Shown one piece after another: positions 13,759 to 52,844 of a stretch of 56,398 nt of DNA. Source of the DNA: an uncultured Pelagibacteraceae bacterium (GTDB lineage: Bacteria; Pseudomonadota; Alphaproteobacteria; Pelagibacterales; Pelagibacteraceae); the NCBI GenBank assembly GCA_902572005.1, contig CACGEC010000004.1, forward strand, positions 1 to 56,398, read 5' to 3'. Below the pieces are notes generated by a model. That model was given only the letters and a program-made list of their open reading frames with translations. It did no database searches and had not been told where the DNA came from. A program made the position numbers and the translations under genes. How positions within the stretch are numbered: position 1 is the first letter of the stretch; the number at the start of each line of letters is the position of its first letter.

Positions 13759-13775
13759 TTGCATTTTATGCATAA
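13759..13775. promoter_or_regulatory. Candidate operator TTGCATTTTATGCATAA (TGCA-N5-TGCA)
   Basis: Inverted repeat shared with sites next to glnA and amtB (see findings). Confidence 0.45.
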
Positions 13776-13778
13776 CTG

Positions 13779-13964
13779 GTGTATGATTCATTTATGAATA
13801 GATTTGAATTTAAAAATCTTGTTAAAAACCTAAAGAACTCTTTAAAAGAAAAAACTTTTTTTAAAGATTTACGTAAAGAAGTAAATACTGGTGCAAATGG
13901 CACTCAGGATTACGTAGTTAAAAAGGGTGTTAACAAAGATACAGTTGCTACAACTAGACAGTAA
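13779..13964 (+). CDS. Uncharacterised small protein (start possibly 13794, 56 aa), abutting glnA tail to tail
   Basis: ORF MNRFEFKNLVKNLKNSLKEKTFFKDLRKEVNTGANGTQDYVVKKGVNKDTVATTRQ in a >200 nt gap otherwise empty of genes, with its own putative promoter region. Confidence 0.6.
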   Translation: MYDSFMNRFEFKNLVKNLKNSLKEKTFFKDLRKEVNTGANGTQDYVVKKGVNKDTVATTRQ

Positions 13965-15371
13965 TTAACTACTGTAATACATCTCAAATTCAACAGGATG
14001 AGGTGCATGTTCAAATTTGTGAATTTCCTCAAATTTAAGTGCAATGTAAGCATCTATTTGATCATCTGTGAATACACCACCTTGTGTTAAGAACTCTCTA
14101 TCTTTATCCAAACTTTCCATTGCTTCTCTTAATGATCCACAAACGGTTGGAATTGCCTTAACTTCTTCAGGTGGTAATTCATATAAATCTTTATCAAAAG
14201 ACTCTCCCGGATGAATTTTGTTTTTAATCCCGTCAAGACCAGCCATTAACATAGCAGCAAACGTCAAATATGGGTTTCCAGATGCATCAGGAAATCTTAT
14301 TTCACATCTAGCACCTTTTTTACTCAAAGTGATTGGTATTCGACATGATGCAGACCTATTTCTCGCTGAGTAAGCCAAAAGAACAGGAGCTTCAAATCCT
14401 GGAACAAGTCTTTTATAGCTGTTAGTAGTTGAGTTCGCAAATGCATTAATTGCTTTTGCATGTTTTAAAATTCCACCAATATAGTGTAATGCAGTCTCTG
14501 ATAATCCAGCATAAGCGTCACCAGAAAATACTGGAGTGTTACCTTTCCAGATCGATTGGTGAATATGCATTCCAGATCCATTGTCACCAGCAACAGGTTT
14601 AGGCATAAATGTTGCAGTTTTTCCAAAAGAATGAGTTACCATTTGCACAACATATTTGTATAACTGAACATTATCTGCTTGATCAACCAATGTTCCAAAA
14701 TACATACCAAGCTCATGTTGACTTGGTGCTACTTCATGATGATGTTTTTCAACTTTAATTCCAACTTCCTTTAAATTTTTTAAATATTCTCCTCGCATAT
14801 CTTGTTCACTGTCAACCGGAGGGACCGGGAAGTAGCCACCTTTTACGGGAGGTCTATGACCCATATTACCATTTTCATATTCTTTACCAGAATTATATGG
14901 ACCTTCTTTACTATCAATTCTAAAACCACATTCATTCATATCATTTTTAATTCTTACATCATCAAAAACAAAAAATTCTGGCTCAGGACCGAAAAAAGCT
15001 TTATCACCAATGCCTGAAGCTTTTAAATATTCTTCTGCCTTTTTGGCTACACCTCTAGGATCTCTTTCATAAGGAGTTTTCTTTACAGCATCTAAAATAT
15101 CACAAAATATCACTGCAGTATTATGAGAAGTAAAAGGGTCTAAAAAAAATCTAGAAGTATCTGGTTTTAAAATCATATCAGACTCGTTGATTGCTTTCCA
15201 ACCAGCGATAGACGAACCATCAAAGAAGACACCATCATTTAACATATCCTCATCTACAACAGTTGAGTCCATTGTTAAATGTTGTAACTTCCCTCTTGGA
15301 TCAGTAAATCTTAAATCAACAAATTCTACTTCTTTATCTTTAATAAACTGCAGAACATCTTTTACACTCAT
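13965..15371 (-). CDS. glnA: Glutamine synthetase type I
   Basis: [34 protein letters not shown]; complete ORF. Confidence 0.97.
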
Positions 15372-15448
15372 TGTTACTCCTTTATAAATCTGAACGTTGT
15401 ATTATCAAAAAAAGACTGATAAATAATGCCCTTTTAATAAATATCACC

Positions 15449-15467
15449 TATGCATTTTTTACATAAG
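15449..15467. promoter_or_regulatory. Candidate operator TATGCATTTTTTACATAAG (TGCA-N5-TACA)
   Basis: In the divergent glnA / ybaK-like intergenic region; same layout as 13759-13775 and 52828-52844. Confidence 0.42.
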
Positions 15468-15512
15468 TGTATAATCAAATGTTTAAATTAACTAACAATT
15501 AAAAGTTGAATA

Positions 15513-15992
15513 ATGACTTTATTAGACAAAGAGCCGGTTAAAAGGGTTGAGAAGATTTTAAGAGAATTTGACTCTTCCCAAAAAGTTATTGTTTTAAACA
15601 CTTCTGCTAGAACAGCTCTGGAAGCAGCTTCATCTCTGAGTTGTGAGGTTGGGGCTATTGTAAAAAGTTTGCTCTTTAAAGCAGAAAATTCATATGTTTT
15701 ATGTTTAGTAGCAGGTGATAAAAAGGTTTCTCTAAACAAAATAAAAAAAACATTAAAAATTAAAGATGCATCAATGGCTTCTGCTGATGAAGTTAAAGAA
15801 ATTACCGGTTATACTATTGGCGGTGTTTCACCAGTCGGTCATTTAAAAAAAATAGATATTTTAATAGATAATTCTTTGGAAAGATTTACTTCACTTTATG
15901 CAGCGGCTGGACATCCTAATTGTATATTTAAATCAAATTTTTTAGATTTACAAAAAATTACTAATGGTACAAAAAAAGAAATAACAGAATGA
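15513..15992 (+). CDS. YbaK/EbsC-type aminoacyl-tRNA deacylase
   Basis: IVKSLLFKAENSYVLCLVAGDKKVSLNKIKK; GYTIGGVSPVGH. Confidence 0.88.
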   Translation: MTLLDKEPVKRVEKILREFDSSQKVIVLNTSARTALEAASSLSCEVGAIVKSLLFKAENSYVLCLVAGDKKVSLNKIKKTLKIKDASMASADEVKEITGYTIGGVSPVGHLKKIDILIDNSLERFTSLYAAAGHPNCIFKSNFLDLQKITNGTKKEITE

Positions 15993-16864
15993 AACAACCA
16001 AAGTTATTAGATTATCTATTATTAGTTTTATTAGCTTTAATTTGGGCATCTGCTTTTTTTAATATAAAAATTGCAACTTATTCTTTTGGACCTGTAACAA
16101 TTGCATTCCTTAGAGTTTTTTTTGGTGCAATACCAGTTTTATTACTTTGTTATTATAAAGAGATCAAAATTGAAGCCTTTTCTAAGGATTGGTATTGGTT
16201 TGCAATGATTGGATTTATTAATCTTGTTGCCCCATTTTTTTTAATTGCCTATGGAGTAAAATCTGTTCAAAGTAATTTGGCTGCTATTTTAATGTCAACA
16301 ACACCTTTGAGCTCAACTGTATTAGGTCACTTTTATACAAAAAATGAAAAATTTAATTTCATCAAAACTTTTGGTATTTTAATTGGATTTTCAGGAATAC
16401 TTTATTTATTTTCAGATAATCTGTTAATTGATGATAATAATTTTTTATCAGCATTATTAATTCTCCTTGGTTCTACTTGTTATGTTGTTGGAGGTGTTTT
16501 AACTTTAAAAATTAGTAAGAAAAAAAATGAAAATGTAACAGGGTCAATACTAATCTGGGCAGTTATCATTTTAATTCCTTTGGTGAGTTTTATTGAGCAA
16601 CCTTGGAACGTGACACCTAGATTAGATTCTACAATTTCTGTTATCTATTTAGGATTAGTTTCAACTGGAATTGCCTGGTTATTAAGATTTAGAATTTTAG
16701 TTAATAATGGTTTAATTTTTCAATCTCAAGTCTCATATCTAATTCCTATTTTTGGAACAATTTTAAGCTATATCTTTTTGAAAGAATTAATCACAACCAA
16801 AGTATTAATTTCATTAATAGCAGTTTGTGTTGGTATTTATTTTGTTAGAAAAGCCGATAATTAA
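15989..16864 (+). CDS. EamA/DMT family transporter
   Basis: 10-TM-like protein with LLLVLLALIWASAFFNIKIA and duplicated EamA halves. Confidence 0.9.
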   Translation: MKQPKLLDYLLLVLLALIWASAFFNIKIATYSFGPVTIAFLRVFFGAIPVLLLCYYKEIKIEAFSKDWYWFAMIGFINLVAPFFLIAYGVKSVQSNLAAILMSTTPLSSTVLGHFYTKNEKFNFIKTFGILIGFSGILYLFSDNLLIDDNNFLSALLILLGSTCYVVGGVLTLKISKKKNENVTGSILIWAVIILIPLVSFIEQPWNVTPRLDSTISVIYLGLVSTGIAWLLRFRILVNNGLIFQSQVSYLIPIFGTILSYIFLKELITTKVLISLIAVCVGIYFVRKADN

Positions 16865-16868
16865 AATG

Positions 16869-17777
16869 TTACTTAAGGGATGCAAAAGCTTTAATATGTG
16901 AAGGTCTTGTTTCACAACACCCACCTAAAATTGTTGCACCTGCATTTTTGAATTTCTTTGCAAATTCTAACATTTTTTCTGGCGTTAAATCTTCACGCAC
17001 TCCAAGAAATTCATTTGGATTGCCAGTTTTACTCTTTTTATAGGCACCCGTGTAATTTGGCTTTGGGTTTGTTTTAATAAACGCATTTAGCTTAAAACCA
17101 AAAGGCACACCTAAATTTTTAATTTCATTTAGATTTAATTCATAATTTTCAGGAGAAATACATGATAATAAAATTCCAAGTAATTTTTCATGCTTAATAC
17201 TATCGATTATTTCTACAATTTTTTCACCACTGGGTAAATTAGTTCCTTCTGAAATATGAGCACCAATTAAGTATGGTTTATTAAATTCTTTAATACTATC
17301 AATTCCAAACCTAAATTCTTTAATACTGCTTAAAACATCAAAGTAAAAAAAATCAACATAAGGATTTAACAATTTTGCTTGGCTATAAAAGTCATCTTTA
17401 ATTTCCTTATCTGATCTTGGATCAGCTTCATAAGTTAAGTATTGAGGAGGCAATCCTCCAGCAATTAAAACATTTGGGTAAAGCTTTTTTGCTTGTTGAG
17501 CAATTTCTCCAGCCTTTTTGTTAAGATATTCAAATTTATCCACTACTTTATTATCTCTTAATCTGGTCTTTCTTGTTGTGAATGTTGTTGTTACAATAAC
17601 CTCAGCACCTGATTTAATAAAATCTATATGAGTGTCTAACAAAAGCTTATGATATTTATCTTGTAACAGAGCATTTGCACTCCACAATGTTCCATTTGGC
17701 TCCATACCTCTTGCTAAAAGCTCTTGCCCCATTCCACCATCTAGTATTCTTGTCTGTTTAAAAAAATTTAAGTCCAT
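16869..17777 (-). CDS. mmuM: Homocysteine S-methyltransferase
   Basis: ILDGGMGQELLARG; C-terminal zinc motif GGCCETRPSHI. Confidence 0.9.
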   Translation of the reverse strand: MDLNFFKQTRILDGGMGQELLARGMEPNGTLWSANALLQDKYHKLLLDTHIDFIKSGAEVIVTTTFTTRKTRLRDNKVVDKFEYLNKKAGEIAQQAKKLYPNVLIAGGLPPQYLTYEADPRSDKEIKDDFYSQAKLLNPYVDFFYFDVLSSIKEFRFGIDSIKEFNKPYLIGAHISEGTNLPSGEKIVEIIDSIKHEKLLGILLSCISPENYELNLNEIKNLGVPFGFKLNAFIKTNPKPNYTGAYKKSKTGNPNEFLGVREDLTPEKMLEFAKKFKNAGATILGGCCETRPSHIKAFASLK

Positions 17778-17854
17778 TTTATCCTCACTTTTTTAGTACT
17801 TTAGCTTTATGCAAGGTGTACAATATAGTTCAACTACCTGCAGATTGATTGTTA

Positions 17855-17905
17855 TGGGGATTCCATTTTAGCAGTTAATGCCCGCAATAGGATCAAATCG
17901 GCAAT
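17855..17905 (-). ncRNA. SAM-II/SAM-V-like SAM riboswitch upstream of mmuM
   Basis: Minus-strand TTGCCGATTTGATCCTATTGCGGGCATTAACTGCTAAAATGGAATCCCC: P1 UGCC/GGGCA, conserved UUGC and GCUAAAA, potential pseudoknot GAUCC/GGAAUC; upstream of a methionine-synthesis gene. Confidence 0.75.
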
Positions 17906-17945
17906 TAAATATTATTCCAAATATCTTATTAAATCAATTAAATTT

Positions 17946-18692
17946 TCAAATAAATAATTTGAAAGCCATTCTAAAAGCTACAAAGATAACTAAGAATGAT
18001 GTCATTAACGCAAGAACCCTGTTAGAAAAAATTTTTAAATTTAGATAATTTCCAAAAAGACCACCAATTAAAACAGCTAAAAATAACGGCCAATATAAAA
18101 AAACTTCATTTAATACATTTTCTTTTGATAAATGACCTAAAATCCCGGAGATAGAGTTGATAAGTATAAATAATGAAGCTGTAGTAACTATAATTTTAGG
18201 CTTATCTGCTTTTAATAAAAAAAGAATTGGACTTAAAAAGATTCCACCACCTATGCCTATTATTCCAGAGATTAATCCAAGGATAGAACCTATAAAGATT
18301 GAGATAAATGAACTGGGTTCTTTTGTCACTAAATTTTTGTCTTCATAAGATTTATTATTTACTAATAGTAATATTCCTGCAATTGATAAAACAAAAAATA
18401 ATAATATTTCAAATATCTCTTTATTAATTATTAAGGTTCCACCAAAAAATGCTAAAGGAATTGATCCTATTAAAAACGGTAATAATAATTTAAAATTATG
18501 ATTTCCTGCTCTAACATAATTAATTGAATTGCCTGTAACAACAATAATATTACAAAATAATGCTATGACTGGAAAAATATAGTATGGAATGTCCCATATT
18601 AGCAGTAGAGCTAAATAAGTAGACCCTCCTCCAAACCCTACACTTGAGTATAAAATAGCTGTTATAAAAAATAAAATTGATAATATAATCAT
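17946..18692 (-). CDS. TauE/SafE family sulfite/anion exporter
   Basis: SSVGFGGGSTYLALLL and IIGIGGGIFLSPILF repeats. Confidence 0.87.
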   Translation of the reverse strand: MIILSILFFITAILYSSVGFGGGSTYLALLLIWDIPYYIFPVIALFCNIIVVTGNSINYVRAGNHNFKLLLPFLIGSIPLAFFGGTLIINKEIFEILLFFVLSIAGILLLVNNKSYEDKNLVTKEPSSFISIFIGSILGLISGIIGIGGGIFLSPILFLLKADKPKIIVTTASLFILINSISGILGHLSKENVLNEVFLYWPLFLAVLIGGLFGNYLNLKIFSNRVLALMTSFLVIFVAFRMAFKLFI

Positions 18693-18706
18693 ATTAAAAA
18701 ATTTTT

Positions 18707-19207
18707 ATGAAAGTTAACATAGCATTATTGACTGTAACAGATACTAGAACTTTTGATAATGATAAATCAGGGGCAATTTTAGTTGAAAAAATAAAGTCGG
18801 CAAATCATAATTTAATAGATCGAAAAATTTGTAAAGATAATAAAGATGATATTGTTATAATCTTAAAAGAGTGGATAAAAAAAGATGAAATTGATGTTGT
18901 TATAACAACTGGGGGAACAGGATTGACTGGCAGAGATATTACCCCAGAAGCAATTGATCAAATCGCAGATAAGCAAATACCAGGATTTGGAGAACTATTT
19001 AGAAATTTAAGTTTGAAAACAGTTGGGACTTCAGCAATTCAATCAAGAGCTTGTGCTGTTTTAGCAAATGGTAAATACGTGTTTGCATTACCTGGTTCTT
19101 CAGGAGGGGTAACTGATGCATGGGAAGGAATATTAAAGCATCAATTAGACGTAAATCACAAACCTTGCAACTTTGTAGAATTATTTCCTAGATTAAAAGA
19201 AAAATAA
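18707..19207 (+). CDS. moaB: Molybdopterin biosynthesis MoaB/Mog-type protein
   Basis: TTGGTGLTGRDITPEAI; LPGSSGGVTDAWEG. Confidence 0.92.
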   Translation: MKVNIALLTVTDTRTFDNDKSGAILVEKIKSANHNLIDRKICKDNKDDIVIILKEWIKKDEIDVVITTGGTGLTGRDITPEAIDQIADKQIPGFGELFRNLSLKTVGTSAIQSRACAVLANGKYVFALPGSSGGVTDAWEGILKHQLDVNHKPCNFVELFPRLKEK

Positions 19208-19486
19208 TTATTTTTGATATTTTTCTTTCCATTCAGTATAGGGCATTCCATAAATTCTTTCTCTAGCCTCAGGATCTGAAATTGAAACACCTTTTTTTTC
19301 TGCTTCCTCTCGGAACCATCTTGATAAACAATTTCTACAAAAATTAGCTAAGTTCATAAGATCAATATTTTGAACATCTTTTCTTTCATCAAGATGCTTC
19401 AATAATCTTTCAAATGTTGCAGATTGTATTTCTATCTTTTTATTTTTATCCATAACAAAAATATTAATGAGTTTTTTTGCAAGCAC
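19208..19486 (-). CDS. DUF1244 family protein
   Basis: ATFERLLKHLDERKDVQNIDLMNLANFCRNCLSRWF...YGMPYTEWKEKYQ. Confidence 0.85.
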   Translation of the reverse strand: MLAKKLINIFVMDKNKKIEIQSATFERLLKHLDERKDVQNIDLMNLANFCRNCLSRWFREEAEKKGVSISDPEARERIYGMPYTEWKEKYQK

Positions 19487-19570
19487 AAGATATAGTATTT
19501 ATACAATTCTAAGTAGAAAATTTAAATTATTACAAATAGACATATATTATTATTGTTAGTTTAATAAGTA

Positions 19571-21316
19571 ATGGCTACTACACGAAAAAGAAAAGCTAAG
19601 CCAAAGACCAAAAGAAAAAAAATAAAATTGGTCAAATCTTCTAGAAAAAAAATAAAAACGAAAAAAAAAGTTGTGACAAAAAAGTCTGCGACTAAGAAGC
19701 GTTCTAAAAAATCTAGAAAAAATAATAAGCTCAAATCAACAAAAAAAACAAGAGGGGTAAAAAAAATGAGTACAGAAACGATAAAAAGTGCCTCGTCTCC
19801 ATTGTTGGATACGTCTCACTTAAAAGTCCCATTTCCATATAAAGCTAAATATGGAAATTTTATAAACGGGAAATTTGTTGAACCAAAGTCTGGAAAATAT
19901 TTTGACAATGTTACACCGATAAATAATGAGGTAATTTGTAAAATAGCAAGATCAGATGCGAAAGATGTTGATGCAGCTTTAGATGCTGCACATGCTGCAT
20001 TTCCAGCTTGGGGCAAAACTTCAATAACTGAAAGATCTAATATTCTTTTGAAAATAGCTGATGTTATAGAAAAGAATCTTAATACATTAGCTACAGCAGA
20101 ATGTTTAGATAATGGAAAGCCAATCAGAGAATGTATGGCTGCAGACTTACCTTTAGTGGTTGATCACTGGAGATATTTTGCAGGTGTTATTAGAGCTGAG
20201 GAAGGTTCTGTTGCAGAAATAAGTAATAGTGAATATTCTTATCACATTCCAGAACCATTAGGTGTAGTTGGTCAAATTATACCTTGGAACTTTCCACTTT
20301 TAATGGCAACTTGGAAACTTGCTCCAGCATTAGCTGCAGGTAACTGTGTTGTTTTAAAACCAGCTGAACAAACTCCAGCTTCTATTATGTTATTAATGGA
20401 AATGATTGGTGATTTATTACCTCCAGGAGTTGTTAACGTTGTAAGTGGTTTTGGTTTAGAAGCCGGTAAACCATTGGCTTCATCTAAAAGAATCAAAAAG
20501 ATTGCTTTTACAGGTGAAACAACGACTGGTCGTTTGATTATGCAATATGCATCTCAAAACTTAATTCCAATAACTTTAGAGCTTGGTGGAAAATCTCCAA
20601 ATATTTTCTTCGAAGATGTTATGGCGCAAGATGATGACTTCTTTGACAAATGTTTAGAAGGTTTTGCAATGTTTACGCTTAACCAAGGTGAAGTTTGTAC
20701 TTGTCCAAGTAGAGTACTAGTTCAAGAGTCTATCTATGATAAATTTATGGAAAGAGCTATTGCTAGAACAAAAGCTGTTAAACAAGACAATCCTCTAAAA
20801 ATGGAGACTATGATTGGTGCTCAAGCATCAGTAGAACAAATGGAAAAAATCAAATCTTACTTAGATTTAGGTAAGAAAGAAGGTGCCAAAGTTCTATGTG
20901 GTGGAAATGTTGCTAAAGTTAATAGTGGTTTAGAAAAAGGAAATTATATTGAACCAACTATTTTCGAAGGTAATAATTCAATGAGAATCTTCCAAGAAGA
21001 AATTTTTGGACCAGTAGTATCAGTAACTAAATTTAAAGATGAAGCAGAAGCATTAAAAATTGCTAATGATACTCTTTATGGTTTAGGTGCTGGTGTTTGG
21101 ACTAGAAATGGAAATATTGCATACAGAATGGGTAGAGAAATACAAGCAGGTAGAGTTTGGACAAACTGTTACCATGCTTATCCAGCGCATGCGGCATTTG
21201 GCGGATACAAACAATCTGGTATCGGAAGAGAAACTCACAAAATGATGCTTAATCATTATAGACAGGTGAAAAACTTACACGTGTCTTACAGTGAGAAAAA
21301 ATTAGGCTTCTTTTAA
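19571..21316 (+). CDS. NAD-dependent aldehyde dehydrogenase with basic N-terminal extension (alternative start 19766)
   Basis: ALDH motifs [25 protein letters not shown]; 65-residue Lys/Arg-rich prefix. Confidence 0.93.
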
Positions 21317-21329
21317 TAGATATATTATA

Positions 21330-21355
21330 ATGGCCCGTATTAAATTACGGGCCAT
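21330..21355. repeat. Perfect 10-bp inverted repeat (ATGGCCCGTA-TTAAAT-TACGGGCCAT) in 45-nt spacer
   Basis: Read directly from sequence; no U-tract on the + side. Confidence 0.9.
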
Positions 21356-21361
21356 ATAAAT

Positions 21362-21709
21362 ATGAAAGTTACAGCAACACCTTCAGCATTAGATCTAATA
21401 GAAGAATTAAAAAAAAATCACGGTAAAGAATTATTATTTCATCAATCTGGTGGATGTTGTGATGGTAGTGCTCCCATGTGTTATCCAGCTAAAGAATATC
21501 AAGTAGGCCAAGATGATGTGATGATTGGTAAGATAGGTGGTATCCCTTTTTATATTAGTGAAACTCAACATTCAGCATGGAAAAATACAGACTTAGTAAT
21601 CGATTGTGTTGAGGGAATGGGTGGAATGTTTTCATTAGACAATGGAACTGGCAGAAGATTTTTAACAAGATCTGAGATTTGTATACCTGAAGATACTACG
21701 ATAAATTAA
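21362..21709 (+). CDS. DUF779 family protein (ALDH-associated)
   Basis: HQSGGCCDGSAPMCYP; EGMGGMFSLDNGTGRRFLTRSEIC. Confidence 0.9.
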   Translation: MKVTATPSALDLIEELKKNHGKELLFHQSGGCCDGSAPMCYPAKEYQVGQDDVMIGKIGGIPFYISETQHSAWKNTDLVIDCVEGMGGMFSLDNGTGRRFLTRSEICIPEDTTIN

Positions 21710-22274
21710 GTTTCCTAAAATTTATTCTAAATAAAAGAAGAATAATTAAGATAATCAAAAAAATTAGAGGTTTAAAGAATATTGTTTTTGATAGCCAAAT
21801 AAAATGCAAAACTCCAAAAATTGATATTATATAAATCAATCGATGTAGTTTTTTCCAATTTTTTTTTAAAATTCTGACCATTTTATCTGATGAAGTTATT
21901 GCTAAAGGAATAAGTAATAACCAGGCTGAAAAACCTATAAAAATAAATTTTTTCTTTAAAACATCATCAATTAAAGGTTCAAAATCAAATCTATAATCAA
22001 GACCAACATAACTAAGCATATGAATTGAGGCATAAAAAAATGCAAACAAACCAAGCATCCTTCTAAATTTAATCCACTCCAAGGAATTGGTAATTTTCCT
22101 AAGAGGCGTCATTGAAAGAGTTAAAAGTACAAATATTAAAGTCCATTCTCCAAAATGATTTATAATCCTATCAACGGGCTCAGGACCTAATTCATTATAT
22201 ATTAATTGATAAACGATTATATAAATAGGCCAAAGTGATAAGAAAAAAACAGCAGACTTGAAATAATTCTTCAA
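21696..22274 (-). CDS. msrQ: MsrQ/YedZ heme membrane subunit
   Basis: Ferric-reductase-like TM protein; LSMTPLRKITNSLEWIKFRRMLGLFAFFYASIHMLSY; adjacent to msrP. Confidence 0.92.
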   Translation of the reverse strand: MKNYFKSAVFFLSLWPIYIIVYQLIYNELGPEPVDRIINHFGEWTLIFVLLTLSMTPLRKITNSLEWIKFRRMLGLFAFFYASIHMLSYVGLDYRFDFEPLIDDVLKKKFIFIGFSAWLLLIPLAITSSDKMVRILKKNWKKLHRLIYIISIFGVLHFIWLSKTIFFKPLIFLIILIILLLFRINFRKLNLS

Positions 22275-22279
22275 TTTAT

Positions 22280-23179: not shown

Positions 23180-23618
23180 TAGCTATAGGGTTTCCTTTTA
23201 ACCATTCGCTTTCTTCATTTTCATAATGTTCTTTTTTCCAAATTGGAGACCTTTTTTTTATTTCCTCAATTATGTATCTTGAAAGTACATATGCTTGATC
23301 ACGATGTTTGCAAGCAACTGCGATAATTATGCTAATCTCACCTAATTTTAAATGTCCTTTAGCATGTTCAATAAATACAGCTTTATCTCTAATATTTAAT
23401 TTTTGATCTGTTTCATTATAAATTTCCTCAAAACTTTTAATCACCATTTCGTCATGACTATCATAAGTAATTCCTGTTACTGTTTTATTATCGTTGATAT
23501 TTCTCACAGTACCTAAAAAATAAATTGATGCTCCAAACTTAGAGTCTTTAATAAACTTTTCAGCGCTTGAAGTAAGTATCTTTTCTTTTTTAGTGTCTAC
23601 TATTTTTGTATGAAGCAT
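23166..23618 (-). CDS. moaE: Molybdopterin synthase large subunit
   Basis: GASIYFLGTVRNIN; HAKGHLKLGEISIIIAVACKHRDQAY; IKKRSPIWKKEHY. Confidence 0.94.
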   Translation of the reverse strand: MLHTKIVDTKKEKILTSSAEKFIKDSKFGASIYFLGTVRNINDNKTVTGITYDSHDEMVIKSFEEIYNETDQKLNIRDKAVFIEHAKGHLKLGEISIIIAVACKHRDQAYVLSRYIIEEIKKRSPIWKKEHYENEESEWLKGNPIANEKV

Positions 23619-23887: not shown

Positions 23888-23896
23888 TGAATTTAA

Positions 23897-25749: not shown

Positions 25750-25756
25750 GAAAAAA

Positions 25757-38474: not shown

Positions 38475-38482
38475 AAATAATT

Positions 38483-39354: not shown

Positions 39355-39365
39355 GTATTTAGTTA

Positions 39366-39430: not shown

Positions 39431-39433
39431 ACA

Positions 39434-40876: not shown

Positions 40877-40920
40877 TATTACTCGATTGTATTAGGTGAA
40901 TTTATCGCTATATATCTGTC

Positions 40921-43767: not shown

Positions 43768-43793
43768 ATAGATTAAAAATTAAAAAGAAATAA

Positions 43794-43823
43794 AATAACT
43801 GACCCAGTAGTGGGCCAGTTATT
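43794..43823 (-). terminator. Stem-loop downstream of aceA
   Basis: AATAACTGACCCA-GTAG-TGGGCCAGTTATT; long stem with a single mismatch. Confidence 0.75.
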
Positions 43824-43850
43824 TACTAATACACAAGAGGAATTGTTTTA

Positions 43851-45125
43851 TTAGAATTGTTCAGACTCTGTCGAGCCATCCATTGCTGTCGTCGAACTTT
43901 TTCCGCTACTAATAGTATTTGAAACAGCATCAAAATAAGAAGTACCAACTTCTCTTTGATGTTTAACACTAGTGTAACCATCTTTTTCTCTAGCAAATTC
44001 TTGTTGTTGTATTCTAGAATACGCTGACATACCTTCTTTTTTATATTTCTCAGCTAATTCAAAAATCGCAATATTTTGAGTGTGAAATCCAGCAAGAGTT
44101 ATAAATTGGAATTTGTAACCCATTTTACTAATTTCTTGTTGAAATGATGCAATCTCATCATCTGATAAATGTTTTTTCCAATTAAAAGATGGCGAACAAT
44201 TATAAGCTAAAATTTTGCCTGGAAATTTTTTATGTATAGCGTCAGCAAATTTTTTAGCTTCTTCTAAATTAGGAGTAGCTGTTTCACACCATATTAAATC
44301 CGAATAAGGTGCATATGCTAAACCTCTTGATATTGCTTGATCTATTCCTGCTTTTACATAATAGAAACCTTCTGGTGATCTTTCACCAGTCAAAAATGGT
44401 TTATCATTATCATCATGATCATTTGTAATTAGTTTTGCTGCATTTGCATCAGTTCTAGCCAATATAATTAACGGCACATTAGCTATGTCCGCAGCTAATC
44501 TAGCAGCTTTTAAATTTTTAATCATAGTTCCAGTTGGTACCAAAACTTTTCCACCCATATGACCACATTTTTTTTCACTCGCTAATTGATCTTCAAAGTG
44601 AACTCCAGCTGCTCCTGCTTTAATAAATTTTTTTGCAAGTTCAAACACGTTTAATGGACCACCAAATCCTGCTTCTCCATCCGCAATAATTGGTAACATA
44701 TAATCAACTTTTTTATCTTCAGACATATCACCATCTTTTATTTCCATATGTTGAATTTGATCAGCTCTAATTAGAGCATTATTCATCGACTCAACCAGTT
44801 TTGGAGCGCTATCATAAGGATATAAGGATTGATCAGGATACATCTCTCCAGCACTATTAGCGTCAGCCGCAACTTGCCATCCACTCAAATAAATAGCCTT
44901 TAATCCAGCTTTTGCATGCTGAACCGCATGGTTTCCTGAAAGAGAACCAAGCGTGTTAACATATGGTTCAGAATTTAACAAATTCCATAACTTTGTAGAC
45001 TGATGTTTACACATCGAGTATTCAATTTTAATTGAGCCTCTCAATCTCTCTACTTCTTCTGGAGTATAATCCCTTTTTATTCCTGCAAATCTTTTTAAGT
45101 CGTATGAGATATTTTCTGCGCTCAT
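43851..45125 (-). CDS. aceA: Isocitrate lyase
   Basis: [14 protein letters not shown] active-site motif; [14 protein letters not shown]. Confidence 0.95.
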
Positions 45126-45189
45126 TATTTTTATCCTGTGCTGTTATAATTTTGCTTGTGAGAAATGAATTAAGTTGAACGAATAAGAT

Positions 45190-45351
45190 TTAATTTGAGT
45201 CGTTTAGGGTCTCAACTAGATCTTTCATTCCACTTGAACCCCAATCACAATGATCATCTCTCATGTAGATTCCTCTGCTATTATGTCTAGCTAAATCCTC
45301 ATGTTTTATGATTTGAGCCTCATTTTCACTGTTTTTTAATTTATCGTTCAT
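45190..45351 (-). CDS. Candidate 53-aa small protein upstream of aceA
   Basis: Minus-strand ORF MNDKLKNSENEAQIIKHEDLARHNSRGIYMRDDHCDWGSSGMKDLVETLNDSN, missed by the 60-aa ORF cutoff; fills most of the gap. Confidence 0.6.
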   Translation of the reverse strand: MNDKLKNSENEAQIIKHEDLARHNSRGIYMRDDHCDWGSSGMKDLVETLNDSN

Positions 45352-45454
45352 GTAAATTTTATAATTTACAGGATTTACAAAATCTACAAAAAAGTAAAAA
45401 ATACTTGTAAATTAAAGAAAATTATTGTAAAAATAAATTTACAAAATTTACAAA
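45351..45454. promoter_or_regulatory. Cluster of TTTACAAA/TTGTAAA operator-like repeats between aceA side and ScfR-like regulator
   Basis: TGTAAATT-TTAT-AATTTACA (45351-45370), TTTACAAA (45374-45381), TCTACAAA, TTGTAA x2, TTTACAAAATTTACAAA (45438-45454). Confidence 0.7.
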
Positions 45455-45462
45455 TAGAAAAT

Positions 45463-46893
45463 ATGAGTCAATTAAATTTAAAAATTGGTCCAAAAATCAA
45501 GGCTTTTAGAAGACAATTGGGTCTCCAAGCTAATAAACTTGCTGAGGAATTAAACATTTCACCCAGTTATTTGAACCTCATTGAAGGGGGAAAAAGAAAG
45601 ATTGATGGAGATTTGTTATTAAAAATTTGTGAAAAACTTAATATTGAGCTTTCTCAATTAACATCCAAAACGGACATAAATTTAGAAAATACTTTATCAG
45701 AAATATTAGATGATAAGTTGTTTGAAGATTTAGATATTTTAGGCCCAGAAGTAAAAGATCTAGTAGGTACAAATCCCAAGATAGGTAAAGCGATCGTAAG
45801 GTTAGGAGATATTCTTAAAAAGAAAGATCACGAAATGATAAATAAAATTGAGACCATATCTGGCAAAATTGTTGATAATAGAAAAAATTCATTTCCAGGA
45901 GAAGTTATTTCAGACTTTTTACAAGAAAATAAAAATTACTTTCCTAAGCTAGAAGATTTTGCAAATAAAGTTTTTGAAAAAGTACAAAAAAATAACAGGA
46001 CTAGATACATTGCTTTATGTGATTATTTAAAATCAGAATATGGGATAACGGTTAAAGATGTAATACCAGAGGAGGACAAACCCTTTTCAAAACTTTATCG
46101 AAAAAATAAAAAAGAATTACTTTTGAGTGATTATAGTTCTTTAGAAACAAAAAAGCTTCATGCAGCAGCACAAATAGCCCAAGAAGGAGCAGATAAAGAA
46201 ATTGAAAATTATTTATCCAAATTTACATTTCCATCAGATGAGTCAAAAAAATTAACTAAAGTTGCTTTATTAAATTACTGTGGTGCTGCTATTTTAATGC
46301 CGTATAAATTTTTTCATACGGAATGTAAAAAACTTAAATATGATTTAGAATTATTACAAAATACTTTTGCCACTTCGTTTGAGCAAGTTGCACATAGAGT
46401 TACATGTTTACAGGATCCAAAACTCCCAGGTATTCCATTTCATTTCCTTAGAGTTGACATGGCTGGAAATATTTCTAAAAGATTTTCATTGTCCGGAATT
46501 GAAATACCAAGATACGGTGGTGCATGTCCAAGGTGGAATGTTTATTCAGCACTTACAAGACCAGGCGTTATTCAAGCTGCAGTAAGCAAAATGACGAATG
46601 GTGAAAAATATGTTTGTATTGCAAGAACTGTTGAAAAAGGTATAGGAAGATTTGGCCAATCAAAAAGTATCTTATCTATTGGACTTGGTTGTGAAGCAAA
46701 ATATGCAAAAGATTTTGTTTACACAGAAAACATAAATATTAATGATAAATCTTCTGAGATACCGATTGGAGTATCATGTAGAACTTGTGATAGATTAGAT
46801 TGCTCGCAGAGAGCTTTTCCTCCATTACATAAAAAGTTTGATGTTGATATCAATTCAAGGGGTGTTTCTGTTTATGTTGGTGATAAAAATTAA
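45463..46893 (+). CDS. XRE-family regulator with IrrE-like and DUF2083 domains (ScfR/RamB-like)
   Basis: N-terminal HTH LGLQANKLAEELNISPSYLNLIEGGKRKI; C-terminal PIGVSCRTCDRLDCSQRAFPPLHK. Confidence 0.9.
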   Translation: MSQLNLKIGPKIKAFRRQLGLQANKLAEELNISPSYLNLIEGGKRKIDGDLLLKICEKLNIELSQLTSKTDINLENTLSEILDDKLFEDLDILGPEVKDLVGTNPKIGKAIVRLGDILKKKDHEMINKIETISGKIVDNRKNSFPGEVISDFLQENKNYFPKLEDFANKVFEKVQKNNRTRYIALCDYLKSEYGITVKDVIPEEDKPFSKLYRKNKKELLLSDYSSLETKKLHAAAQIAQEGADKEIENYLSKFTFPSDESKKLTKVALLNYCGAAILMPYKFFHTECKKLKYDLELLQNTFATSFEQVAHRVTCLQDPKLPGIPFHFLRVDMAGNISKRFSLSGIEIPRYGGACPRWNVYSALTRPGVIQAAVSKMTNGEKYVCIARTVEKGIGRFGQSKSILSIGLGCEAKYAKDFVYTENININDKSSEIPIGVSCRTCDRLDCSQRAFPPLHKKFDVDINSRGVSVYVGDKN

Positions 46894-46905
46894 TGTTAAT
46901 ATATT

Positions 46906-47070
46906 ATGCTTAAATTTATAATTCCAGCAGTTGTTATTTTTCTTATTGTTCTATTTTGGGAAAAGATAAATGCTGTAATTTTTAAGAAATTTAACCTTAA
47001 AATTAATTACATTATAATATTTATGTTATTGATAATTTTGGGAATAATAATTGCTTTATTATATTTCTAA
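46906..47070 (+). CDS. Candidate 54-aa membrane protein
   Basis: MLKFIIPAVVIFLIVLFWEKINAVIFKKFNLKINYIIIFMLLIILGIIIALLYF; two hydrophobic segments, below the ORF-track cutoff. Confidence 0.5.
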   Translation: MLKFIIPAVVIFLIVLFWEKINAVIFKKFNLKINYIIIFMLLIILGIIIALLYF

Positions 47071-47159
47071 TTTTATGAAATTTAAACATAACTCAATTGA
47101 TTAATAATCATATGAGATCTACTTTTTAGAATGTAATTATTAACAAAAAAAAATATAAA

Positions 47160-47732
47160 ATGATCCAAGTTTTAAAAAAAAGATTAAAACCCAGAATTAA
47201 AGCTAGAATAAGAAAAAATAAACAAATTATTAACAAAAATATTGACAACTTTTTCGATTGGATAAAAGGAGCTGAACTAGTTGAGTTAAAAGAATGTAAT
47301 GTAAATGAAGATCCAGTAAGGCCTGAATTAGATAATATTTTTAGACGTAGTTATGGAAGAAAAATTTATGGAGTTCAATATGGAGGAGAAATTCATGCTG
47401 TAATGTGTTTTGCATACACAAATCAAATTCCAAAAAGCGTCGAGGAATTAGATAAATTTAGTCATGATGCTTTTTTACAAAGTGCACAAAGAGACCAAAA
47501 TGTAGGAAAGATTGCGATTGCTTATACTGTATGGTCCAAGAAAAAGGGTGGGGGTAAGTTAATAGTTAAGGAAGTCTTTAAAAAGATTAAAAAATCAAGT
47601 CATCTTAATAGATTGGTTACGCTATCTCCTTTAACTGAAATGGCCACAAAATTTCATAGTAAGAATGGTGCAAAACTTATCCAAGTGAATGAAACAACCC
47701 AGAATTTTGAATATCAAGTTATTAAAAAATAG
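47160..47732 (+). CDS. Uncharacterised protein, possibly GNAT-like
   Basis: ORF with basic N-terminus; IAIAYTVWSKKKGGGKLIVKEVF...MATKFHSKNGAKLIQVNE. Confidence 0.55.
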   Translation: MIQVLKKRLKPRIKARIRKNKQIINKNIDNFFDWIKGAELVELKECNVNEDPVRPELDNIFRRSYGRKIYGVQYGGEIHAVMCFAYTNQIPKSVEELDKFSHDAFLQSAQRDQNVGKIAIAYTVWSKKKGGGKLIVKEVFKKIKKSSHLNRLVTLSPLTEMATKFHSKNGAKLIQVNETTQNFEYQVIKK

Positions 47733-47746
47733 ATATTATCTTTTTA

Positions 47747-48913
47747 ATGATAAAATCTAATTGGAATTATCCTACAAATGTTTGGGTTGGAGAAAATCGT
47801 ATTAAAGATTTGTCCTCAGCTTGCAAAAATCTAAATATTAAAAAACCGTTGTTAGTAACGGATAACAACTTGGCTAAAAGTAAAATAATCTTGAATTCAT
47901 TAAAAATATTAAAAAATGATAATATTTTAGTTGAAGTTTTTTCCGATGTTGTTGGTAACCCCACTGGCACCAATGTAAATGATGGGGTTAAGTTTTTTAA
48001 TAAAAAAAATTGTGATGGAGTGATTGCTTTTGGTGGTGGTAGTGGATTAGATGTTGGTAAAGCAATTGCCTTTATGTCAGGACAAAATTTATCAATATGG
48101 GATTTTGAGGATATTGGAGATAATTGGAAAAAAGCAGACTCAAAAAAAATTGCTCCTATTATTGCTGTACCAACTACAGCTGGAACAGGATCTGAAACAG
48201 GTAGAGCGTCAGTAATTTTAAATGAAGAAACAGGAGTTAAAAAAATAATTTTTCATCCAAAATTTTTACCTTCAATTGTTATTTTAGATCCAACTTTAAC
48301 TATTGAGCTTCCACCAAAAATTACGGCATCAACTGGTATGGACGCGTTAGCTCATAATTTAGAAGCTTACTGTGCCCCAGGTTATCATCCGATGGCAGAT
48401 GGTATAGCTTTAGAGGGAATGAAATTAATCAATGAGTCATTATTAATAGCATTTAAAGATGGCTCTAATATTCAAGCAAGAATGAACATGTTGGCAGCAG
48501 CTAGCATGGGATCTACTGCATTTCAAAAAGGGTTAGGTGCAATTCATTCATTAAGTCATCCAGTAAATGCATTAAATAATATTCATCATGGTTTATCTAA
48601 CGCTATATTTATGCCCTATGTTTTGACCTTTAATAAAGACTCAATAGAAAATAAAATAATAAATATTTCTAAATACTTAGAATTAAAAGACCAATCTTTT
48701 GTAGGATTTATTAATTGGATATTGGATTTAAGAGAAAAATTAAATTTACCACATAAACTATCAGAGGTAATCAAGAAAGAGGATCTTGATATTGAGAAAT
48801 TATCAAAAATGGCTCTAGATGACCCTTCCACATCAACAAATCCAAAGAAAATGTCTATTGACCATATGAAGGATTTGTATGAACATAGTATGGCAGGAAA
48901 ACTATTTAAATGA
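47747..48913 (+). CDS. Iron-containing alcohol dehydrogenase
   Basis: AFGGGSGLDVGKAIA; PTTAGTGSETGRASVI; GLGAIHSLSHPVNAL. Confidence 0.95.
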   Translation: MIKSNWNYPTNVWVGENRIKDLSSACKNLNIKKPLLVTDNNLAKSKIILNSLKILKNDNILVEVFSDVVGNPTGTNVNDGVKFFNKKNCDGVIAFGGGSGLDVGKAIAFMSGQNLSIWDFEDIGDNWKKADSKKIAPIIAVPTTAGTGSETGRASVILNEETGVKKIIFHPKFLPSIVILDPTLTIELPPKITASTGMDALAHNLEAYCAPGYHPMADGIALEGMKLINESLLIAFKDGSNIQARMNMLAAASMGSTAFQKGLGAIHSLSHPVNALNNIHHGLSNAIFMPYVLTFNKDSIENKIINISKYLELKDQSFVGFINWILDLREKLNLPHKLSEVIKKEDLDIEKLSKMALDDPSTSTNPKKMSIDHMKDLYEHSMAGKLFK

Positions 48914-49707
48914 AAAACCTTAATTTATTGGTTGTCGAAGGAAACTTACAAGAAGAAAATGATATATTTAAATTAAACGGAATTCCTACTCACGCAGAGA
49001 GTTTAAAAGAAAGTCTTTCATATTATACGAATGATTTAAATATTGATGTTTTTAATCCATGTTCAGAAAAAAATTTTGATAAAATCTTACTGAATATTAA
49101 AAAATATGATGGTTTGATTTGGGGTGGAAGTAGCTTAAATATTTATAATGATTGTATAGAAATCAAAAGGCAAATTTCTTTTATGAATGAATGCTTCAAA
49201 AATATAAAAAAAATTCTAGCAATTTGCTGGGGTATGCAAGTTGCGGTTACTGCAGCAGGTGGAAAAGTGAAGAAGTCAGAAAATGGCGCTCATATTGGTA
49301 TCGCAAATAATATAGAAATTAATGAAAATGGAATTAATCATCCTTTATATAGATCAAAAGGTCAAAAGTTTAACTCGCCTGCCTTTAATTTTGATGAAGT
49401 AGTCACTTTACCAGAAGGAGCAATACATTTGGCATCAAATAAGATCAATAAAATACAAAGTATAAATTTTAAATCAGGTATAAGTGATGTTTGGGGCTTA
49501 CAATATCATCCAGAAATCACATATCACAAAATGATTTCATTAATCAAATTTAGGAAAGATAAATTAATTAATACAAGAAAATGCTTTAAAGATGAAAAAG
49601 AAATTCAAGAACATATTAATTTTATTGAAAAAGAGATTAAAGTTTCTGTCACAGAATCCAGAATGCAGGAATTAAAAAATTGGCTAGATTATTTAAAAGC
49701 TGCTTAA
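48910..49707 (+). CDS. Class I glutamine amidotransferase (GATase1)
   Basis: ILAICWGMQVAVTAAGG nucleophile Cys; WGLQYHPEITYH. Confidence 0.87.
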   Translation: MKNLNLLVVEGNLQEENDIFKLNGIPTHAESLKESLSYYTNDLNIDVFNPCSEKNFDKILLNIKKYDGLIWGGSSLNIYNDCIEIKRQISFMNECFKNIKKILAICWGMQVAVTAAGGKVKKSENGAHIGIANNIEINENGINHPLYRSKGQKFNSPAFNFDEVVTLPEGAIHLASNKINKIQSINFKSGISDVWGLQYHPEITYHKMISLIKFRKDKLINTRKCFKDEKEIQEHINFIEKEIKVSVTESRMQELKNWLDYLKAA

Positions 49708-51104
49708 TATTTCCTTTTTTTTTTAAACCTTTTAAATGAAAAATTTTTTGGCCTTTTTCTATTTTTAAATTTTTTCTTTGTTTTAAATTTAAATTTCTTT
49801 TTATTAGAATCTTCGGTAAAGTCACTTGAAGATTTCTTATCAAAAAATTTAGGATTATTTGTAAAACCAAATTTTTTCTTTTTATCTTTAAATCTTGATT
49901 TTCTTGAATCGGTTCTTTTAAAGAATTTTTTCTTTTCTTTAAATTTTCTTTCTTTATTAAATGAAGCATTAGGTCTTTTCTTACCTTTGAAATTTTTTTT
50001 ATCTTCACTTTGAAGAGATTTAAAATTTGGATCAATTAATCTTCTGATTGAGCTCCACATTGATCTATCATTTGGTGTAAGAAATGTTAAAGCAGAACCT
50101 TCTTTACCAGCCCTACCTGTTCTTCCAATTCTGTGAATATAATCTTCAGGAACTTGAGGCAGGTCATAATTTATTACATGTTGTATTAAAGGAATATCTA
50201 AACCTCTTGCTGCAACATCTGTTGCAATTAATATTCTGCTTTTACCATTTCTAAATCCTGCAATAACACGGTCTCTTTTACTTTGTCTCAAATTGCCATG
50301 AATAGCATCTGCTGAGTGACCATCATATTTTAAACGTTTAACTATTTTATCTGCTCCATGTTTGGTTTTCACAAAAACCAAAATAGAACCACTTCTTTCA
50401 ACTAATTGATTTATCAATTCATGATATTTTTTATCTTGAGTTACTTGAAATGTTTCTTGTTTAATCTTTTCAATAGGGGTTGATAATGATCCTACAGCTA
50501 TTCTTTCAGGATTGTTTAAATATTTTTCGGAAATTCTTAAAATATTATTTGGTAAAGTTGCAGAAAATAATAAAGTTTGATGATTTTTTGGAATAAATTT
50601 TAAAATTAACTCTATTTGTGGAGTAAAACCCATGTCTAACATTCTATCTGTCTCGTCTAAAACTAAATAAGAGACTTTAGATAGATCTAAACTTTGTCTT
50701 TTTAAATGGTCATTAATTCTTCCAGGTGTGCCAACTATAATTCTTGCTCTTTTTTTTAATTTTTTAAGTTGCTTTTGCATACTTTCACCACCAATTAATA
50801 ATGCATTGCCAATACCTATTTCTCTAACATTTAATTTTAAAACTGTTTGCATTACTTGGCTCGCAAGTTCTCTTGTAGGACAGATAATTAAAGCCATAGC
50901 ATTTTTATCCAAAATTAATTTATTTATCATTGGAATCGTGAATGCTAAGGTTTTACCTGTGCCAGTTTGTGCAGTGCCCAATATATCTTTACCTGTCAAA
51001 CTAACAGGAATTGATTTACTTTGAATAGGCGTAGGCGATTTAAAATCTGCATACTTAATTGAATTCTTAAGTTTATTTTCAATTGGTAAATCGTTGAAGT
51101 TCAT
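49704..51104 (-). CDS. rhlE: DEAD-box RNA helicase (RhlE-like) with basic Phe/Lys-rich tail
   Basis: GTAQTGTGKTLAF; LDETDRMLDMGF (variant DETD); HRIGRTGRAGKEG; C-terminal K/F/R-rich region. Confidence 0.92.
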   Translation of the reverse strand: MNFNDLPIENKLKNSIKYADFKSPTPIQSKSIPVSLTGKDILGTAQTGTGKTLAFTIPMINKLILDKNAMALIICPTRELASQVMQTVLKLNVREIGIGNALLIGGESMQKQLKKLKKRARIIVGTPGRINDHLKRQSLDLSKVSYLVLDETDRMLDMGFTPQIELILKFIPKNHQTLLFSATLPNNILRISEKYLNNPERIAVGSLSTPIEKIKQETFQVTQDKKYHELINQLVERSGSILVFVKTKHGADKIVKRLKYDGHSADAIHGNLRQSKRDRVIAGFRNGKSRILIATDVAARGLDIPLIQHVINYDLPQVPEDYIHRIGRTGRAGKEGSALTFLTPNDRSMWSSIRRLIDPNFKSLQSEDKKNFKGKKRPNASFNKERKFKEKKKFFKRTDSRKSRFKDKKKKFGFTNNPKFFDKKSSSDFTEDSNKKKFKFKTKKKFKNRKRPKNFSFKRFKKKRKY

Positions 51105-51228
51105 TATTTAGATAAATAGTTTGATTGGATGGATGCTTATATCTTTTTAAAACAAATACAATCAATGTTTTTTAATCATTTATTAGGTCAAAATAGGTAG
51201 TTGAGTACAACTTAAAATTCAATTAAAG

Positions 51229-52350
51229 TTGATAATTATGCTTAGTTACATTTTACCATTTATAGTGCTAATCCTAGTAGTAGTTTTTATCCATGAATAT
51301 GGTCACTATTACTTTGCAAAAAGATATGGGGTTGGAATTACAGATTTTTCTATTGGGTTTGGTAGAGAGATATTTGGTTGGAATGATAAATCTGGTACAC
51401 GATGGAAAATCTGCTGGATACCTTTAGGTGGATACGTCAAATTTTTTGGTGATAGAAATGTATTTTCACAAGCAGACCAAGAAAAAATTATCCAAAAATA
51501 TAATGAAAAAGATCGTGAAAAATTATTTGTTTTAAAACCACTTTATCAAAGAGTATTAATTGTTTTTGGGGGTCCATTAGCTAATTTTTTGTTAGCTTTA
51601 GTAATTTTTTTTTCTATATATACGTTTATAGGTAAGGATTTTACCCCTGCAGTTATTAATGAAGTTCAAAAAGATAGTCCTGCCATGATTGGTGGATTGA
51701 AGCAAAATGATATTATTTTAGAAATAGATGAAAATGAAGTCAAAAGTATAATGGATGTTTCTAAATATATTACAATGTCTACAGATGATTTTATTAATTT
51801 TAAAGTAAAGCGTTCTTATGAAGAATTAATATTGAAGATAAAGCCTAATATAGTTTTAAGTGAAGATAATCTCGGTAATGAAATAAATAAGAGAATGGTA
51901 GGGATTAAATTGGGTGCATATAACAATGAATTTAACCATGTAAAATTGGGACCTGCACAAGCAATTTATCATGCGGCACATGAAGTTTATTATGTGAGTA
52001 TCTCATCTTTAAAATATATAGGTGCAATGATATTTGGAAAAGCTGATACTTCTCAATTAGGTGGACCAATTAGGATTGCAAAAATATCAGGACAAGTTGC
52101 TGAATTTGGCATTTTAGCTTTTATTAGCATGATGGCTTACATTTCAATAAGCCTTGGTTTGGTTAATTTATTTCCAATACCCTTGTTAGATGGTGGACAC
52201 TTGATGTTTTATGCATTTGAAAAAATATTAGGCCGACCATTATCACAGAAGACACAAGAGGGTTTTTTTCGAATCGGTATGTTTGTATTGCTGTCATTAA
52301 TGTTTTTTACAACCTTTAATGACTTAAAAGATCTTGGATTATTTAAATAA
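51229..52350 (+). CDS. rseP: RIP site-2 metalloprotease RseP-like (start probably 51238)
   Basis: VFIHEYGHYYFAKRYGVG zinc motif; PDZ-like region; FPIPLLDGGHLMFYAFE. Confidence 0.93.
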   Translation: MIIMLSYILPFIVLILVVVFIHEYGHYYFAKRYGVGITDFSIGFGREIFGWNDKSGTRWKICWIPLGGYVKFFGDRNVFSQADQEKIIQKYNEKDREKLFVLKPLYQRVLIVFGGPLANFLLALVIFFSIYTFIGKDFTPAVINEVQKDSPAMIGGLKQNDIILEIDENEVKSIMDVSKYITMSTDDFINFKVKRSYEELILKIKPNIVLSEDNLGNEINKRMVGIKLGAYNNEFNHVKLGPAQAIYHAAHEVYYVSISSLKYIGAMIFGKADTSQLGGPIRIAKISGQVAEFGILAFISMMAYISISLGLVNLFPIPLLDGGHLMFYAFEKILGRPLSQKTQEGFFRIGMFVLLSLMFFTTFNDLKDLGLFK

Positions 52351-52507
52351 AAAAATTTCTTAAGAATCAACAAAAGCTAGTAAAATCAACACTTTTTTAA
52401 GTTTGTACAATATATTGTGTATAACTTTTGTTTATCTACTAAAAAAAGTCTTGATTTATCAACACTTTTGATAAAAATGGTAATTAACCTAATAAACCGG
52501 AGCTAAA

Positions 52508-52783
52508 ATGAACAAAAAACAATTAGTAGTCAAACTTTCAGGAGCTTTAAATCTAAGTAAAGCAGATGCTGAAAGAACTTTTGACACAATAACCAACACT
52601 ATTTTGGATGCTTTAAAAGGTGATGACTCAGTGAAAATTGCTGGTTTTGGAACTTATAAAGTAGCTAAAAGAAAAGCTAGAGTTGGAAGAAATCCCCGAA
52701 CTGGCGAGCAGATTCAAATTGCTGCTTCACAGAAGGTTAAATTCTTACCAGCAAAAGCTTTAAAAGAAGTATTTAATAGATAA
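52508..52783 (+). CDS. hup: HU-family DNA-binding protein
   Basis: MNKKQLVVKLSGALNLSKADAERTFDTI; FGTYKVAKRKARVGRNPRTGEQIQI. Confidence 0.95.
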   Translation: MNKKQLVVKLSGALNLSKADAERTFDTITNTILDALKGDDSVKIAGFGTYKVAKRKARVGRNPRTGEQIQIAASQKVKFLPAKALKEVFNR

Positions 52784-52790
52784 TTTTTTT

Positions 52791-52822
52791 ACAGCCTTAA
52801 TGTTAAAAAGCATTAAGGCTGT
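52791..52822. terminator. Hairpin after hup (12-bp perfect stem)
   Basis: ACAGCCTTAATG-TTAAAAAG-CATTAAGGCTGT. Confidence 0.85.
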
Positions 52823-52827
52823 TTCTA

Positions 52828-52844
52828 TATGCAAATTATGCATA
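52828..52844. promoter_or_regulatory. Candidate operator TATGCA-AATTA-TGCATA upstream of amtB
   Basis: Perfect palindrome, same TGCA-N5-TGCA layout as near glnA. Confidence 0.5.

Follow-up and report, generated by a model that had tools for sequence, protein, structure and literature searches.

A candidate nitrogen operator shared by ammonium assimilation genes of Pelagibacter-type SAR11 bacteria

Palindromes in the glnA and amtB regions

We analysed a 56,398-nucleotide stretch of DNA (the window) from a 760-kb metagenome-assembled genome (MAG) of an uncultured Pelagibacteraceae bacterium, contig CACGEC010000004.1. The original prediction was that three intergenic palindromes with the layout TGCAN5TRCA, lying beside glnA, a small open reading frame (ORF) that abuts glnA, and amtB, form a nitrogen operator. 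All three sequences are present in the window where they had been reported, and they stand among the following genes and elements.

13747 to 13763, + strand: everted half-site pair TGCATA-GCAGT-ATTGCA upstream of the small ORF, in the order also seen at gltD
13758 to 13774, + strand: small-ORF operator (site 1), ATTGCA-TTTTA-TGCATA, in which TTGCAT may act as a -35 element
13794 to 13964, + strand: small ORF encoding a basic 56-residue protein of phrog_32989, abutting glnA tail to tail
13965 to 15371, - strand: glnA, glutamine synthetase (Pfam PF00120, E = 3e-134), convergent with the small ORF
15449 to 15465, no strand assigned: glnA operator (site 2), TATGTA-AAAAA-TGCATA on the glnA strand, from conservation and matrix scans
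52828 to 52844, no strand assigned: amtB operator (site 3), TATGCA-AATTA-TGCATA, from conservation and matrix scans
52916 to 54217, + strand: amtB, ammonium transporter (Pfam PF00909, E = 3e-99)

The predicted intergenic placement of all three sites was correct, with one change of assignment: because the small ORF and glnA are arranged tail to tail, site 1 belongs to the small ORF's own promoter and is not an upstream site of glnA. Site 2 lies within the divergent intergenic region between glnA and a ybaK-like gene (15513 to 15992). On the opposite strand, a TATAAT sequence 4 nt past the glnA operator (15466 to 15475, + strand) could drive the ybaK-like gene, and the glnA operator may also cover that gene's promoter.

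The bare pattern TGCAN5TRCA occurs at 12 distinct places in the window with both strands counted, 4 of them intergenic and 8 coding. Three of the intergenic places are the reported sites, and the fourth, at 17810, is explained by its position inside a SAM-V riboswitch (17785 to 17848, - strand, 67 bits), the sole known riboswitch found. Dinucleotide shuffles of the window's intergenic stretches (n = 2000) gave an expectation of 0.13 matches, and none of the 2000 reached the observed 4, so the intergenic matches are enriched over a shuffled control. Across the MAG, the same pattern gave 117 strand matches (62 + 55); it is thus too common to be a useful motif by itself, and we rejected it as the operator motif for insufficient specificity. 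What survives of the proposed motif is its extended form, the 17-mer TATGCA-N5-TGCATA, which is specific.

Specificity and conservation of the operator

We searched 20 genomes for this 17-mer. Each genome of the window's genus (g1) with a listed match (G000, G003, G017, G035, G043, G051, G078, G149, and G154) contained a single exact copy, and in all nine it lay 70 to 90 bp upstream of amtB. The reversed pattern, used as a control, gave 0 to 2 matches in same-genus genomes with one mismatch allowed. We then scored the 77,794 noncoding positions of a complete 1.2-Mb relative genome (G003) with matrices built from different classes of site. The matrix from amtB orthologue sites alone ranked amtB 1st and glnA 2nd, that from glnA sites alone ranked amtB 1st, and that from small-ORF sites alone ranked amtB 1st and glnA 4th. 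A matrix from all three classes returned amtB, glnA, and the small ORF as its top three, a ranking that is partly circular because those classes had trained it. With amtB and glnA at ranks 1 and 2 in cross-training, nitrogen genes stand out from the remaining noncoding DNA; a motif no commoner there than in background, which the original prediction had named as refuting it, was thus not what we observed. An exact TATGCA-N5-TGCATA was also seen in L054 (genus g12), where it precedes a gene for an outer-membrane-like protein of 312 residues, not a nitrogen gene.

At orthologous amtB, glnA, and small-ORF promoters, the sites have been retained throughout the genus in spite of drift in the DNA around them, so the other refuting condition of the original prediction, a lack of conservation at such promoters, did not arise either. 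The amtB footprint reads CTATATGCA-N5-TGCATAcCc over 35 distinct sequences, the glnA footprint reads tATGT-N6-TGCATAgGtGNTAT over 22, and the small-ORF footprint reads CATAtCAG.aTTGCA-N5-tgCATA over 17; the same 17 small-ORF promoters conserve NCATATCAG..TTGCA, the upstream half-site pair. Among 79 further Pelagibacteraceae contigs, the small-ORF site scored at least 11 in 78, compared with 0.3% of shuffles, and its end lay 18 to 20 nt from the ATG in 78 of 78 loci. The glnA site was present in every one of 78 testable glnA promoters, mostly 77 to 78 nt from the ATG. Beyond the genus, the amtB site is kept in g4, g7, g2, and g10 (scores of 14.3 to 18.4), a persistence that holds at ~72% AmtB identity; in a comparison of amtB leaders by genus, g9, g12, and g3 either lacked it or had a degenerate form. 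In the amtB leaders of L182-L184 and L192-L196 (g9 and g12), the g1 palindrome is replaced by shared CCCCTGTTAGTTAAATT and TTTAGATATCTA, and at least some members of these lineages possess PII.

The half-site TGCATA (TATGCA in reverse complement) is the predicted unit of recognition, with half-sites 11 bp, or one helical turn, apart. At amtB and glnA the half-sites form an inverted pair (TATGCA-N5-TGCATA), and the small ORF in the window has three in a row, in both orders (TGCATA-GCAGT-ATTGCA-TTTTA-TGCATA). Such palindromes might instead be RNA hairpins or terminator remnants, and the amtB site does follow, within 10 nt, the HU gene's terminator hairpin. However, the operator arms show neither covariation nor compensatory changes: the glnA operator retains a one-sided T-G change, the small-ORF arms are unpaired at their outer two positions, and it is single half-sites that are conserved. 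The arms are therefore conserved in sequence, as for a protein site, and not as an RNA stem. Since, in addition, the small-ORF site precedes the predicted start of its transcript and the half-sites at gltD are everted, we regard a hairpin origin as very improbable. We give even less credence to an artefact of AT-rich composition and low divergence among close relatives. The bare pattern is indeed frequent in coding DNA, but the intergenic shuffles expected far fewer matches than were observed, the exact 17-mer recurs at amtB in genome after genome, the sequence flanking the conserved blocks is free to vary, and other genera retain the amtB site.

The gltD-gltB genes, identified by Pfam, had been proposed as a further nitrogen target, and they do carry a half-site pair, but in the everted order NCATA-N5-TATGCA, which is conserved in most of 26 orthologous gltD promoters. 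An everted scan of G003 with half-site weights from amtB, glnA, and the small ORF, which took no gltD data, ranked gltD 3rd among noncoding positions. The position ranked 1st (879150) is upstream of a homocysteine methyltransferase gene, and its GTGCGCC context suggests a putative SAM-V element; that ranked 2nd (856342) has a gene for a 123-residue protein without known function downstream. In a scan for both orders over upstream regions, with adjacent coding DNA included, gltD came 22nd of 1257 genes, so its score in a single genome is modest and the case for it rests on conservation. A second inverted repeat, AGGTCA-N6-TGACCT, separate from the nitrogen half-sites, occurs in nearly all gltD leaders (L365-L390) ~60 to 80 nt upstream of gltD and may be a further operator or a hairpin in the leader.

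Promoter geometry, candidate regulator, and small protein

The position of each operator relative to its promoter was assessed from the following predicted elements.

13782 to 13787, + strand: predicted small-ORF -10, TATGAT, 17 nt beyond TTGCAT and with the ATG 6 nt further on, of the leaderless type
15399 to 15404, - strand: predicted glnA -10, TAATAC, in the extended form TGA-TAATAC and separated from the operator by 44 nt
15438 to 15443, - strand: possible second glnA promoter with the extended -10 TGA-TATTTA, 5 nt from the operator; GGTGNTATT conserved
52888 to 52893, + strand: predicted amtB -10, TATAAG, 43 nt past the operator

In the average of 46 amtB promoters, the -10 score was highest 43 to 44 nt past the operator if either of two adjacent offsets was accepted; single-offset means also highlighted 21 and 38 nt. 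A TTTGNTA element conserved in 22 distinct glnA promoters leads to the extended -10 at 44 nt, which is not the best-scoring offset in the averaged glnA profile; the elements at 5 and 23 nt are conserved too. If the spacing of 43 to 44 nt holds, the operator centre is probably near -64 at both amtB and glnA, a usual position for an activator. Among small-ORF orthologues, a -10-like score peaks 6 to 7 nt after the site, with the ATG 6 to 7 nt later in most, and a leaderless transcript is therefore predicted, with the operator near -28, over the -35 and -10 elements. Judged by these positions, a site over the core promoter of the small ORF suits repression, whereas the geometry at amtB (and possibly glnA) suits activation.

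Canonical PII is lacking, as had been claimed for SAR11: it was found in none of 10 near-complete g1 genomes and neither of 2 g4 genomes. PII (GlnB/GlnK) is present in g5, g9, and g12. The adenylyltransferase GlnE was found in none of 18 genomes searched; GlnA of the window (13965 to 15371) nevertheless retains a DLYELPPEE stretch that resembles the adenylylation-site region.

SAR11 bacteria have four two-component systems, including NtrY/NtrX, and their only sigma factors are sigma-70 and sigma-32 (PMC13198564), which means that sigma-54 promoters are not available to them. NtrX of G003 has REC, AAA, and Fis-type HTH (HTH_8) domains, and its gene directly follows ntrY. A single strong copy of ntrX occurs in near-complete g1 genomes; it was not found in the source MAG (63% complete). 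Our leading candidate for the regulator is the NtrX protein of the ntrYX cluster, to which we would give slightly less than an even chance. In a 2013 study, AmtB, GlnA, and GltBD reportedly increased in nitrogen-limited HTCC1062 and NtrX changed.

The small ORF is present, in single copy, in 213 of 297 Pelagibacteraceae genomes, and it is under purifying selection (median ratio of nonsynonymous to synonymous substitution rates, Ka/Ks, of 0.17). It lies no more than 60 nt from glnA in all 79 named Pelagibacteraceae loci and sits between sufA and glnA in genera g1, g2, g3, g4, and g6. In g2 and g4 it begins ~8 to 15 nt after sufA and looks co-transcribed as the end of the suf operon; an operator at the small ORF was seen in g1 only. 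Directly upstream of it in the window is an rrf2-sufB-sufC-sufD-sufS-sufU-sufT-sufA operon (7562 to 13727). The protein matched no Pfam, NCBIfam, or PDB family, and its PHROG match was to phrog_32989 (function unknown; E = 2.5e-14, residues 8 to 50). The predicted structure consists of an N-terminal helix and a low-confidence remainder (predicted local distance difference test score of 72; predicted template modelling score of 0.35). Searches did not support the small ORF as an IF7 homologue or as having PDB or plasmid relatives. For likeness to IF7/IF17, the cyanobacterial glutamine synthetase inactivating factors, profiles and residue columns were compared, IF7 itself not being aligned, and there was neither a Pfam or NCBIfam match nor an invariant arginine column.

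Relatives of the small protein occur in at least 573 IMG/VR viral contigs and in 28 of 50,697 annotated phage records, 26 of them Pelagibacter phages and 2 without a named host. The carriers are of unrelated types: podoviruses including a member of the Autographiviridae, a T4-like phage, a siphovirus, and others. In HTVC008M, the match sits in a gap without an annotated gene. The host protein is a member of phrog_32989 by sequence; the phage copies differ in having an MRDTK-type N terminus and no operator upstream, the best score there being 9.3 and none convincing. Infection with HTVC022P or HTVC027P reportedly raises host glnA, gltB, gltD, and amt (PMC12753301), which are the assimilation genes of the regulon predicted here; of these two phages, only HTVC027P is among the matches for the small protein.

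Interpretation and comparison with known nitrogen regulons

The operator is real, specific, and conserved in Pelagibacter-type SAR11. We put at roughly 0.8 the probability that it is a shared nitrogen operator through which one transcription factor acts on ammonium assimilation, a figure that excludes the identity of the factor and the direction of its effect. The predicted regulon has four members (amtB, glnA, gltDB, and the small ORF) and belongs to lineages without PII and GlnE; with gltDB included it is larger than the original prediction showed. We found no earlier description of this SAR11 operator in the literature searched. In the mechanism that we propose, the factor, bound ~64 bp ahead of the predicted start of amtB transcription (and probably likewise at glnA), would recruit sigma-70 RNA polymerase under nitrogen limitation; bound over the -35 and -10 elements of the small ORF, it would repress that gene. 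The circuit would replace the PII/NtrBC control that these genomes lack.

Several observations weigh against parts of this interpretation. A matrix from amtB and glnA sites placed the left-out small ORF 8th among the G003 noncoding positions and not at the top. All -10 assignments are predictions from sequence, and the three candidate -10s of glnA (5, 23, and 44 nt) leave its averaged profile without a clear peak. The left half of the gltD site in G003 is degenerate. As for NtrX, there was no strong site near ntrYX of G003 (the best, from just before ntrY to the ntrX start, scored 7.3). The protein is near-universal, and genera that lack the amtB site have it too, which makes co-occurrence uninformative; we rejected its presence or absence as a discriminator. 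The published NtrX consensuses, GCAn9TGC (PMC7240162) and CAAN2-5TTG (PMC9223101), disagree with each other, having only CA-Nx-TG in common, and the operators match neither exactly: they fit a CA-N5-TG dyad loosely and do not fit GCAn9TGC.

A different division of labour would have a repressor, for example of the Lrp, GntR, or Xre type, sensing glutamine or another nitrogen signal and binding all of the sites, with NtrX uninvolved; amtB, glnA, gltDB, and the small ORF would then co-vary, as in GlnR-type regulons. An operator over the core promoter at the small ORF and at the conserved extended -10 of glnA (5 nt) would fit such a protein, and the geometry is a poor match to Fis/NtrC-type sites. 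We nevertheless consider a common repressor unlikely, given that the best amtB -10 is 43 to 44 nt away, a position usual for activation, and that no candidate repressor was found. The small ORF might, on the other hand, belong functionally to the suf iron-sulfur operon, its g1 operator being a late addition unlinked to glutamine synthetase. Such a role would involve the small ORF alone and could hold alongside a nitrogen operator; we think it a real possibility, if not the favoured one. Its place just after sufA, its seeming co-transcription in g2 and g4, and the restriction of its operator to g1 all agree with a suf role, while the sharing of that g1 operator with amtB, glnA, and gltDB and the tail-to-tail position beside glnA kept in five genera do not. 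With GlnE and PII missing, glutamine synthetase control is an attractive target for the small protein, and the suf linkage is an equal contender. The most far-reaching proposal is that one factor activates amtB, glnA, and gltDB and shuts off a 56-residue glutamine synthetase modulator serving in the role of GlnE and PII, and that unrelated pelagiphages captured this protein to seize host nitrogen assimilation; we rate that combination as quite unlikely.

SAR11 bacteria, the most abundant in the ocean, have cell numbers among the highest on Earth and regulate nitrogen assimilation without PII, GlnE, or NtrBC. A defined operator, four target transcription units, and a promoter spacing offer a concrete, testable site for nitrogen sensing in these bacteria. 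The occurrence of an unnamed protein family in SAR11 podoviruses, a T4-like phage, and a siphovirus points to a common viral handle on host metabolism.

Among known systems, the NtrC-controlled enterobacterial glnA regulon shares with the SAR11 sites the targets glnA and amtB, palindromes with TGCA elements, and possibly two glnA promoters; it differs in that its TGCAC-N7-GTGCA spacing is not conserved in SAR11 and in that SAR11 lacks PII and GlnE. The motif of cyanobacterial NtcA, whose regulon takes in glnA and the glutamine synthetase inactivating factor genes gifA and gifB, is GTA-N8-TAC, compared with TATGCA-N5-TGCATA in SAR11. Alphaproteobacterial NtrX sites have CA-Nx-TG dyads, which the SAR11 operators resemble loosely, and SAR11 NtrX retains the REC, AAA, and Fis-type HTH domains, but the published consensuses are unlike TATGCA-N5-TGCATA and the targets of R. 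sphaeroides NtrX are envelope genes (PMC7240162, PMC9223101). NtrX is able to activate, and repression is proposed for cases in which it covers the start (PMC7240162, PMC9223101). NtcA represses gifA from -28.5/-30.5 and activates from about -40.5 (PMC6316151). The predicted SAR11 activator spacing of about -64 departs from the -40 of NtcA, and the SAR11 small protein has neither an invariant arginine nor detectable homology to IF7/IF17, which need three conserved arginines (PMC6316151). The likeness to the NtcA regulon lies in its design, in which one palindrome serves the nitrogen genes, with activator sites upstream and a core-promoter site that represses the gene for a small basic protein (PMC6316151); this parallel suggests that the small ORF and glnA may be regulated oppositely in SAR11 as well.

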